A DNA stretch of 64,000 bases, taken from the NCBI GenBank assembly GCA_038087015.1, contig JASBNA010000011.1, forward strand, positions 868,001 through 932,000, in the 5' to 3' direction. Made by a program: the position numbers and the translations under genes. Below are positions 1 to 40,452 of this stretch, in pieces; position 1 is the first letter of the stretch; the number at the start of each line of letters is the position of its first letter. Origin of the DNA: Cerrena zonata. Lineage: Eukaryota; Basidiomycota; Agaricomycetes; Polyporales; Cerrenaceae. The notes below the pieces were generated by a model that saw nothing but the letters and a program-made list of their open reading frames with translations, was not told the origin of the DNA and did no database searches.

Positions 1-611
1 GCGTAATTCTCTTCGTCGCCAGGGATCGGTAGGGTCTTGTTTGGTAAGAGACGGGCTTGCGATTTGGGAATCTTCGACAAACCAAATTCTGAATGTATGT
101 TCCGTCAGTACTTAGGACAAAGACATGCTCTGTTGTTATATTTTTTACCGTTGAACATATCAAGCCATGCTTTATCGACTTCTGGAGAGGGGTCGCCTTC
201 ATAGATAGTCTTGTGACGTCCGAAACCCATGGTAAAGGTCTTTGGCTGGTATTCTAAAGCATCTTGAGCAGGAGCTAGAGATGTCAAGTTATGAGGTATC
301 ATCGATGAGGAAGTGGAGGAGGACATACAGTATAGCACCTGGGGAAATACTGGGTTGATAGGGCAATCGGGTCGCTCCCTGTTCCATAAAACCATTGCAA
401 GACCCACGAGAAGTATCGTTTGAACAAAAATGATGATAAAGTGGACGGAGCGACCCGCTGAGCCAGCTACGGCTCCGACGTGTAATTTCTGTATCTCAGA
501 GCGATCCTCGACATCGTTGCGCTTCTCCAACCCCTCCTCGTTCTCGTCAGCGAGTAGAGGTCGATATTGACTCTCTAGTATGCTGGAGATTCGTTTGGGG
601 AGGATAAGCAT
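1..611 (-). CDS. UstYa-family (DUF3328) oxidase-like protein, partial at the window edge
   Basis: Start ATG is at 611. Exon 1 is 149-611, a 60-nt intron is 89-148, and exon 2 is 88 down to 1, continuing past the left edge. The protein has a cytosolic N-terminus and one membrane segment at about residues 56-76 (HFIIIFVQTILLVGLAMVLW). A lumenal part follows with the family signatures GDPSPEVDKAW and, after the splice, FGLSKIPKSQARLLPNKT and IPGDEENY. UstYa proteins are membrane-anchored enzymes that oxidise or cyclise ribosomal peptides, and sometimes other metabolites, in fungal clusters. Their HxxHC copper/iron-binding motifs lie C-terminal, beyond this window, so catalytic integrity cannot be judged. 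The gene is divergent from the kexin-repeat precursor at 1770, which is the expected partner of such an enzyme. Family assignment is firm; substrate is inferred from context. Confidence 0.88.
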
Positions 612-1403
612 GTTACGACTCGGTACAATGAGCGACAGTTCGTGAAACAGAGGATAGAGTGGTCTGTTAAGAATCTCAACCTGAACCTCCGTGGACAGTT
701 ATCCTCAATCCTGAACATCGTCCAAGAGAGCACGGAATTTCATGCCCGTCTGCACAATTTGCCAAGAAAAGGGGAGAAACCACATCGAACACAATAACAT
801 AGAAAGAGAACGAGAGGAAGGAGTTGAGTATGATATCGATAATTCAATGGATGTAAGGGGGATCATCCGAGGGTACCTACATGAAACTGAATTAGGAACC
901 CAGAGAAACGTCGATCTTTCCAAATGTGATAAAACGTACTTTCATGCCATCAATTGATCACCGGATGTCATCCGGTCAGAATAGGTGCTTCGTTATCTGT
1001 GCAGATTTCTGCAAACATACAGGAAGAGAGACCCATTCCAGACGTCTTGGCATCTGTCAGTATACGGGAACGTTCCTGATTGTAGTACGAACCATGGTGA
1101 GATTGAGGTTAGAATTACACTTGCAAACACGGCAGGGTATCTCCTTGTTCGGTGATTTTCACCGTATTTGGATATGTTGGAATTTCGTGTTTGTACTTCA
1201 AAGAATATTTCACGACGATTGCTATTATGCTTACAGGTGACAATGAGAGAGGAATTCTGTAATTGAGAAAAGTAGTGACAGATGTAACTCACAAAAAAAA
1301 CACAACATTCCAATATTGAAAACGTTGAGCCCATCATTGTCCGTGGCTAAGTCCAATAGATTGCACCATTATACATCATTGTACGAAACTGCCAACTTGA
1401 AAC

Positions 1404-1419
1404 GACCGACCTGTCGGTC
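1404..1419. promoter_or_regulatory. Perfect 7-bp inverted repeat with 2-bp spacer, candidate regulator site
   Basis: GACCGAC CT GTCGGTC contains the everted triplets CCG-N6-CGG, a geometry recognised by some Zn2Cys6 fungal regulators. It sits between the two divergent genes, about 370 bp upstream of the precursor ATG. One 16-bp site could arise by chance; no second copy was seen in this interval. Confidence 0.3.
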
Positions 1420-1683
1420 AAATCCGTGTACAATTGAATATAATGTAATTGAGAGAACATGAGGCCGAATCGCCCTGAAAGTTGACAGTTGCGCATTGAT
1501 GTTGGGAAGGAGCAAGGTATGTTCGCCAAGGGTGAACGGTCATGAATCACCTCGTCTCTCTTTGAGGTCTTGTGAAGACAAAGAAAACATGGCGACGTAG
1601 GCTTAACCGACGCATTGGCAAGGCACAACCGTGAAACTGGACGAGCAAAGTTTCCTTGAAGGAGGAGAAGGGCGAGGTTGAGG

Positions 1684-1691
1684 TATAAAAG
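1684..1691 (+). promoter_or_regulatory. TATA box of the kexin-repeat precursor gene
   Basis: TATAAAAG lies 79 bp upstream of the ATG at 1770, at a suitable distance for a core promoter with a short leader. Confidence 0.55.
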
Positions 1692-1769
1692 ATGGCCAGA
1701 GTAGACGAGTTGTCCTCCAGACTCGCTGTGTTCTGCTGTAAACTTGCGATCTTATCTATCTCCAGCAAT

Positions 1770-2460
1770 ATGAAGTCTATCGTCGCAGCCTTCGCTGTTC
1801 TTGCTTTGTACATCAGCATCGCAGTCACGACGCCTGTCCCAGAGGTGTGTCATCTGTTCATAGTCCAAGAGTGGAATAGCTCAGCTGAGAACGAACATAG
1901 GTCGATGAAGTGAGTGGTTTAAATCACTCGCCTTTGAGTTTCACCTATACGCCACACAGAAGCGAGCCGTAGCTATCAACAGCACTTTCGTCGGGAGCGA
2001 GTATCGATTCAGCTCTTACTCCCGAGGTGACGCAGAGAAGGTAGGCATAGTTGGAGTTAGATCAAAACCAATTGCTTATGCTCTGTATTCAAGCGAGATG
2101 CCAATCTTGTCAACAGTACCTTTGTGAACAGCAGCTATTCCGGCAGCTCGTATTCCAGGGAGGCTGCTGAGAAGGTAATCAACGGTATTATGAACGGGGG
2201 GTAAATATACTCACCCAATTGTATCTGTTATAGCGTGCAGCCCCTGCTGTCGATGGACAATTTGTTAACAGCAGCTACAGTGGGAGCTCCTACACTAGGT
2301 CCGAGGAGAAGGTGAGTTGCCTGACGATATCTTTACTGTACCATTCGGATTAACGATTGCTTAGCGGGATGAAGGGAACTTTATTCGTGATGTCAAGCTC
2401 GATGTGAGTGAGGAGTCCTAGTAGTTTGATGGAGTTCCGTACTAATTCCAGGTTACCTAG
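1770..2460 (+). CDS. Secreted kexin-processed repeat peptide precursor (candidate RiPP precursor, UstA-like)
   Basis: Six exons are deduced: 1770-1844, 1960-2040, 2094-2174, 2234-2311, 2365-2403 and 2452-2460, giving 120 residues. Exon 1 encodes a signal peptide (MKSIVAAFAVLALYISIAV, then TTPVPE). Exons 2, 3 and 4 each encode one repeat of 26-27 residues. Each repeat starts after a Lys-Arg pair and carries a conserved 16-residue block: NSTFVGSEYRFSSYSR, NSTFVNSSYSGSSYSR and DGQFVNSSYSGSSYTR. Four KR sites in all delimit the three peptides and a short acidic tail. All introns are phase 0; three of them fall exactly between the K and R codons. Signal peptide, repeated cores, KR spacing and a neighbouring UstYa gene match dikaritin-type RiPP precursors. 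Alternatives are a peptide pheromone-like or structural kexin-processed peptide. The repeat structure is seen directly; the product is inferred. Confidence 0.82.
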
Positions 2461-39921: not shown

Positions 39922-40050
39922 ACGACCTTTGACGATCCCTTACGACTTTAACGACCTTAACGACCTTTGACGATCCCTTACGACTTTAACGACCTTAACG
40001 ACCTTTGACGATCCCTTACGACTTTAACGACCTTAACGACCTTTGACGAT
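39922..40050 (+). repeat. 38-bp tandem repeat, about 3.4 copies
   Basis: Unit starts ACGACCTTTGACGATCCCTT and recurs exactly at 39922, 39960, 39998 and (partial) 40036. Seen directly. Confidence 0.92.
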
Positions 40051-40141
40051 TACCTATCCTGACTTACGATTAGTTGGACTTCAGTACACCTCTTGAGTAA
40101 GGTGTACCCCGTCCTTTCAACTCAGCCTTGCTGAAACTTGT

Positions 40142-40452
40142 GGAACCTGGATTAAAAGCCACAAGCGACTCCCACCACACTTGCGGAAACTGGATTAAAA
40201 GCCTCAAGTGATTCTCATAACTTTCGTGGAAACTGGATTACAAGCCCCGATTGTTCTTTACGATATTACAACATTCTATTGCGACTGTGATTCCCATAGT
40301 TGGATCCTTTCACGCACACCCCATACGATTATTCTCGACGACTTGGATCAGAGCTCCCAAGGACGGTCATTTACGATTACACAGATTCCAAGAAGGAATA
40401 CTGATATTACGATTACTTTTGGACCCTGCTTGAGGAACCTGGATTACAAGCC
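40142..40452 (+). repeat. Four dispersed copies of a 19-bp motif
   Basis: GGAA(C/A)CTGGATTA(A/C)AAGCC at 40142-40160, 40185-40203, 40228-40246 and 40434-40452; spacing 43, 43 and 206 bp. Confidence 0.85.

Follow-up and report, generated by a model that had tools for sequence, protein, structure and literature searches.

Does the left end of this window, the whole 64,000-nucleotide stretch analysed here (C11:868,001-932,000 of the polypore Cerrena zonata, genome 55.5 Mb), encode a kexin-processed repeat peptide together with an oxidase that would modify it? The closest known systems are the dikaritins ustiloxin, phomopsin and asperipin-2a, for which two sources describe kexin-type processing and DUF3328 proteins leading to cyclised peptides (PMC7329392, PMC9233826). 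The genes of the window share with them a signal peptide, dibasic-flanked repeated aromatic cores and an adjacent UstYa/DUF3328 gene. With a probability of about 0.7, we read the pair as a two-gene module, in which a secreted repeat precursor would be cut by kexin and the UstYa protein is the candidate for oxidation of the aromatic core.

Structure of the precursor and UstYa genes

The two genes lie on opposite strands in divergent order and consist of the following parts, given in window positions.

1..611, minus strand: 5′ part of the UstYa gene, with exons 611-329 and 274-149 and the beginning of a third exon; the gene runs on to C11:867,531
612..1769, no strand: divergent intergenic region, with TATAAAA at 1684-1690, some 80 bp ahead of where the precursor begins
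1770..1844, plus strand: precursor exon 1, signal peptide MKSIVAAFAVLALYISIAVTTPVPE, a hydrophobic leader pattern
1901..1909, plus strand: exon 2, 9 nt, encoding VDE; GTCGATGAA preceded by AG and followed by GTGAGT; present in P0121
1960..2040, plus strand: exon 3, KR, repeat 1 (AVAINSTFVGSEYRFSSYSRGDAE) and K
2041..2093, plus strand: phase-0 intron of 53 nt inside the kexin site, separating Lys from Arg, GTAGGC...TTCAAG
2094..2174, plus strand: exon 4, R, repeat 2 (DANLVNSTFVNSSYSGSSYSREAAE) and K
2175..2233, plus strand: phase-0 intron of 59 nt splitting Lys and Arg, GTAATC...TTATAG
2234..2311, plus strand: exon 5, R, repeat 3 (AAPAVDGQFVNSSYSGSSYTRSEE) and K
2312..2364, plus strand: phase-0 intron of 53 nt splitting Lys and Arg, GTGAGT...GCTTAG
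2365..2421, plus strand: exon 6, R, C-terminal tail DEGNFIRDVKLDVSEES and stop; agrees with P0121

Splicing of the six precursor exons (1770-2421, plus strand) gave a protein of 126 aa with three FV.S.Y..SSY repeats, ordered as signal peptide, VDE, KR, repeat 1, K/R, repeat 2, K/R, repeat 3, K/R and tail, where the slash marks an intron. The exon model was identical letter for letter to the public protein P0121 (QCA50_008733, Cerrena zonata), and the public annotation splices the same exons together. The first-pass annotation had described a precursor of 120 residues with three KR-delimited, Tyr/Ser-rich repeats that share an invariant Phe and two invariant Tyr. The repeats were confirmed, and the length had to be corrected; the 9-nt VDE exon had been missed, and the protein ends in VSEES, not in VT. 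The repeat cores read FVGSEYRFSSY, FVNSSYSGSSY and FVNSSYSGSSY, with F, V, S, Y, S, S and Y invariant, and each repeat is flanked by KR on both sides. None of the three K/R introns (53, 59 and 53 nt) is a multiple of three. The secretion signal was judged by its hydrophobic leader pattern. The precursor matched no Pfam family at E values up to 0.1, and the pheromone-type domain of ascomycete alpha-pheromone precursors was absent.

The left window edge falls inside an intact UstYa gene on the minus strand, which extends leftwards from its start codon at 611 to C11:867,531. Its spliced model of 285 aa matched the Pfam family UstYa (PF11807) with E 3.3e-52 over profile positions 15-220 of 220, and contains a hydrophobic stretch, YSPA, HQLHC and HVSHC. 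Two HxxHC-type motifs are the hallmark of UstYa proteins, and both were present in the model (HQLHC and HVSHC). The candidate precursor/UstYa locus proposed by the first-pass annotation is well supported. The start codons lie about 1.16 kb apart, in agreement with the 1.2 kb estimated before, and the genes carry the consecutive locus numbers QCA50_008733 and QCA50_008732.

The public UstYa protein P0001 (QCA50_008732) was 97% identical to our model over 83%. The last intron of the gene (C11:867,531-868,611) has an apparent GC donor, CAG/GCAAGT; the public model has only 240 aa and lacks the C-terminal part of the domain because this intron was apparently read through. The closest relatives outside C. 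zonata had 60-66% identity (Somion occarium, Panus rudis, Steccherinum ochraceum and Cristinia sonorae). Among solved structures, none resembled the Somion relative P0002 by sequence, the best hits (E 0.58) being unrelated proteins. A bacterial promoter scan of the window was set aside, the host being a fungus.

Surroundings of the pair

The pair is bordered on the right by an oxysterol-binding protein gene and on the left by an ORF with a zf-4CXXC_R1 (zinc-finger) domain, and a flavin monooxygenase-like gene lies about 27 kb to the left of the UstYa gene. The further biosynthetic genes expected leftwards by the first-pass annotation did not appear: no second UstYa gene was found in the 40 kb left of the window, and Pfam detected no tyrosinase, methyltransferase or transporter in the 24 ORFs scanned out of 66 listed (at least 110 aa) in this region. 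The nearest tyrosinase match (C11:814,878-815,703) is about 52 kb to the left, outside the candidate cluster. As this partial scan of the neighbourhood gave no tailoring gene, the locus looks like a two-gene module. Elsewhere in the window, a perfect 38-bp tandem repeat of 3.4 copies (39922-40050) is followed by a 43-bp repeat of 2.6 copies with 80% identity (40136-40246).

Pairing of precursor and UstYa genes in the C. zonata genome

The UstYa profile search of the genome gave at least 45 exon-level matches (50 candidates scored), and a search with a sister UstYa protein gave 46, in which nine classical multi-exon genes were separate from other types. The best exon match per classical gene ranged from 1.2e-52 to 1.2e-8, and the other types gave single matches of 8.6e-7 or weaker. 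A tblastn analysis of 21 loci agreed with this split among the matches listed. All nine classical UstYa genes had a divergent kexin-type precursor upstream, with eleven precursors in total; the pairing, which the first-pass annotation had asked for in related genomes, was thus conserved within C. zonata. The dikaritin trait of a UstYa-adjacent precursor is thus shared by the window and eight further UstYa genes, listed below with their precursors; three of these cassettes stand in tandem on contig C7.

C46 (L014), minus strand: leader MFSSTFFKLF..., 17 copies of [TV]D.[SI]F[GK]IY[DN]
C5 (L018): precursor with DTDLFFAQKY twice
C1 at 1,886 kb (L017): precursor with SVDMVFN.NYFPPP twice
C1 at 1,965 kb (L016): three consecutive precursor genes
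C7 first cassette (C7-1), L020 at 6523: precursor with RATVDDLQKNYG
C7 middle cassette (C7-2), L020 at 9715 into L021: degenerate precursor; UstYa copy with apparent frame break
C7 third cassette, L021 at 3931: precursor with six copies of SVDDYNYG and a divergent one at the end
C12 (L022): precursor with RGTTVDECNLYK six times

In the middle C7 cassette, the apparent frame break of the UstYa copy (L020:8645-7946, C7:about 217 kb) lies in the HVSHC exon, and the precursor is degenerate as well.

The precursors were discovered in several ways. Three came from a strict K/R scan and two from a looser one; inspection of translations by eye revealed those of L016, L017 and L018; and the middle C7 precursor was found by a leader pattern, itself devised after most leaders were known, which recovers ten of the eleven precursors (all except that of L017). 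When the leader pattern was combined with a TATA motif, the window gene was the single match in 104 kb (the window with the adjoining 40 kb on the left), where three other leaders lacked the TATA motif, and the eight classical loci gave ten matches, one of which was the window gene again. Eight short-type UstYa loci gave four small genes, in which no kexin repeats were recognised.

These scans bear on the possibility that the precursor and the UstYa gene are neighbours by coincidence. A coincidence would suit a unit of only two genes between oxysterol-binding protein and zinc-finger genes, as well as the four small genes matched at the short-type loci. We consider it extremely improbable, since the divergent order is identical at all nine classical UstYa genes and the leader-plus-TATA pattern, drawn up with most leaders already known, matched once in 104 kb against ten times in the eight classical loci.

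The similarity of UstYa proteins did not significantly follow that of the leaders (Mantel r 0.34, with 3199 of 40320 permutations as high; eight loci, with C7-2 omitted and only the first precursor of the C1 triple used). A DNA similarity search with the L021 gene returned only itself and part of L022, and a protein search of the C. zonata genome with the window precursor returned only its own exons.

At the short-type loci, a small secreted gene (MFHKLFLVVCVAFALAGAAP; L027:about 3593-2913, C11:about 427.9 kb, minus strand) is divergent from the short-type UstYa gene L027:4885-5133. It contains four similar exon-like blocks, LFLEAKANVV, LFKEAKADVV, ILAEAKTNVV and LFSEANTDVL, with no dibasic sites inside, and may represent a second class of exon-repeat precursor. 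Upstream of other short-type UstYa genes, and divergent from them, lie further small genes that have a hydrophobic leader (L015:6533, L019:6934 and L024:7278, plus strand), without recognised repeats. UstYa matches at C124:45-48 kb, on a 55-kb contig, and at C11:472-475 kb form three pairs whose members score identically, and these duplicates are probably an unmerged haplotype copy.

Introns between repeats and within cleavage sites

The repeats occupy separate exons in six of the eleven precursors (the window, C46, the three of C7, and C12), although two C46 exons hold two repeats each, and mostly share one exon in the other five (three in L016, and those of L017 and L018). Phase-0 introns exactly between the Lys and Arg of cleavage sites were found in the window gene and two others: beyond the second exon, the junctions were K/R in seven of seven cases in L021 and in six of seven in L022, whose last junction leads to a stop. 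In C7-1, five of six repeats end in Gly instead of Lys and thus have no dibasic site, the lengths of the five introns that separate these six repeats are divisible by three, and the final exon encodes RDD and a stop. In L014, 7 of 15 exon junctions were dibasic, and the other eight had Arg followed by a non-basic residue. Because of the Gly ends and the non-dibasic junctions, kexin cleavage of every unit is doubtful in these two precursors. Judging from the intron phase, gain, loss or skipping of an exon-intron unit with phase-0 introns in Lys-Arg would change the number of peptides by one without disturbing the reading frame.

Constraint on the repeats

Between the three aligned 16-residue cores of the window, pN was 0.28 and pS 1.01, a saturated value that is only rough. 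The pN/pS ratio was 0.00-0.28 in all seven arrays compared, which exclude the L016 genes and C7-2: 0.28 in the window, 0.07 in L021, 0.00 in L022, 0.00 in L020, 0.12 in L014, 0.02 in L017 and 0.10 in L018, with pS above 1 (saturated) in the window, L014 and L017, and two copies each in L017 and L018. With few amino-acid and many silent changes, the repeats are, as read from the sequences, constrained at the protein level. The whole-exon nucleotide identity among the window repeats (0.52) was below that of the introns (0.59), so the support for the repeats comes from amino acids, not from DNA. The introns were no more alike than shuffled ones (0.60), which suggests that the units are old.

Tandem phase-0 exons bounded by K/R gave 12 links in 251,130 real bases (five in L021, five in L022 and two in the window) and none in 5,022,600 bases generated by a first-order Markov model. 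As the UstYa loci are part of the real sequence, the contrast is with chance and not with other genome regions.

A decayed or non-spliced locus, with chance repeats in place of coding exons, would fit the finding that exon DNA is no more alike than intron DNA and the degenerate look of the sister copies C7-1 and C7-2. It is very improbable, as the public protein model is identical letter for letter, the changes between repeats are few at the amino-acid level and many at silent sites, and 5.0 Mb of random sequence held no such array.

Recurrence in other sequences and visibility in databases

The search with the window precursor, which covered 5.8 billion proteins, had two hits, the precursor itself and P0122, and thus no precursor was seen beside the related UstYa genes of other species. 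P0122, from a 936-base contig, reads ...RAVPSVDGNFVNSSYSGSSYSREAEEK, an intron-like stretch, and RAANLVDSDFVNSSYSGSSYSRENNEK; as read from this unspliced protein, the window core and the K/R split recur in it, and it has VDxxF ahead of the Tyr/Ser block. The signature [VTI]-[DEN]-x-x-F was present in 8 of 12 hand-picked core sets, namely those of P0122 and of seven precursors out of the eleven; relaxed to a very permissive form, it matched all 12. This count is a description and not a test; the cores were chosen and aligned by eye, and the selection passed over the degenerate C7-2 repeats, the last, divergent copy in L021 and several stretches of the L016 and L018 precursors that did not fit.

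When four sister precursors were aligned and the alignment was used to search the protein database, the one hit was P0123, a partial protein from the C7-2 gene of C. zonata, which has an apparently retained intron. Scoring covered the 7994 candidates with the most shared words, and L014, whose full length lies outside the length limits, entered the alignment in truncated form. The search thus gave no pairing by locus numbers in another species. The sister precursors C7-1, L021 and L022 were not returned, and their absence, together with the retained intron of P0123, fits a loss of such genes in annotation.

Discussion

In the proposed mechanism, the precursor would enter the secretory pathway, and kexin would cut after each Lys-Arg to release three peptides of 24-25 residues, whose ends a Kex1-like carboxypeptidase may trim. 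The linear monoisotopic masses predicted for the three peptides after both steps are 2612.214, 2654.173 and 2508.104; each cross-link would lower them by about 2.016, Ste13-type trimming would reduce them further, and N-glycans would raise them. The C. zonata genome has kexin-type P-domain matches at C24:550,677 and, as a partial one, on C3. The UstYa protein, encoded across the shared divergent promoter region, would then oxidise the core, where the unchanging Tyr/Phe residues in FVNSSYSGSSY are the likeliest sites, and the outcome would be a modified, probably cross-linked, secreted peptide. For the oxidative cyclisation, we infer the reaction from the enzyme family. A single DUF3328 gene may be enough, as asperipin-2a has only one (PMC7329392).

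Alternatively, the products could be linear, unmodified kexin-processed (KEP) peptides, such as signals, surface peptides or antimicrobials, with UstYa acting on something else. The peptides detected by mass spectrometry in the Agaricomycete Coprinopsis cinerea were linear and minimally modified (Vogt 2022, PMC9769878); its precursors share the kexin repeats, and the available text names neither UstYa nor DUF3328. Repeats 2 and 3 of the window begin with X-A/X-P dipeptides (DA; AA and PA) that Ste13-type trimming could remove, and N-glycosylation sequons were read in all three repeats (one, two and one in repeats 1, 2 and 3), so that a linear glycopeptide is a possible product. Considering the UstYa pairing at nine of nine classical loci and the invariant aromatic residues of the core, we regard linear products as unlikely and favour the two-gene module with UstYa-dependent oxidation.

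The pair differs from the dikaritins in its basidiomycete host, its two-gene module and its introns splitting Lys-Arg sites. Its cores are also unlike the asperipin core. They likewise differ from YAIG and YVIP, and the tyrosinase described for the ustiloxin and phomopsin clusters was not seen near the window pair (PMC7329392).

The first-pass annotation had suggested an undescribed peptide family. This does not hold for the kind of pathway, since dikaritin-like KEP/UstYa pathways are already known and catalogued in Basidiomycota: DUF3328 genes were near 103 of 1680 basidiomycete KEPs (6.1%) versus 1647 of 5372 in ascomycetes (30.1% as printed), and the former are gene pairs of the same kind as that of the window (Umemura 2020, PMC7329392). 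The new part is the intron-split architecture together with the consistency of the pairing. Among the titles and abstracts listed by the literature searches, none described the intron-split layout. The survey of Umemura 2020 used annotated proteins, and its main text, as available, does not mention intron, splice, Cerrena or Panus (PMC7329392). The text of Le Marquer 2019 at hand contains neither "intron" nor "exon" (PMC6339444), and that of Vogt 2022 mentions introns once, for the cDNA cloning of intron-less KEP sequences (PMC9769878).

For basidiomycetes, it was suggested that the factor might differ or that cyclisation might hardly occur (Umemura 2020, PMC7329392). Tentatively, and at somewhat below even odds, we propose that polypores have a large family of UstYa-modified secreted peptides with one exon per peptide and phase-0 introns inside the kexin site, in which splicing and exon duplication would set, in frame, the number and mix of peptides. 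Gene finders would miss such genes, and the scarcity of basidiomycete UstYa-KEP pairs in that survey may in part be an annotation artefact. This argument has a precedent in the remark that amatoxin genes are hard to identify owing to the high intron density of basidiomycetes (Ford 2022, PMC9233826). In Pleurotus ostreatus, 16 UstYa-like genes have been reported, six of them developmentally expressed (Merenyi 2022, PMC8893723).

With nine UstYa genes and their eleven neighbouring precursor genes, this single mushroom offers a concrete, testable set. The precursors also provide a search rule for hidden basidiomycete genes, namely short exons in phase 0 that stand in tandem, have K and R at their borders and are divergent from a UstYa gene. 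Both bear on the question of whether mushrooms are truly poor in cyclised kexin peptides or whether annotation is hiding them.
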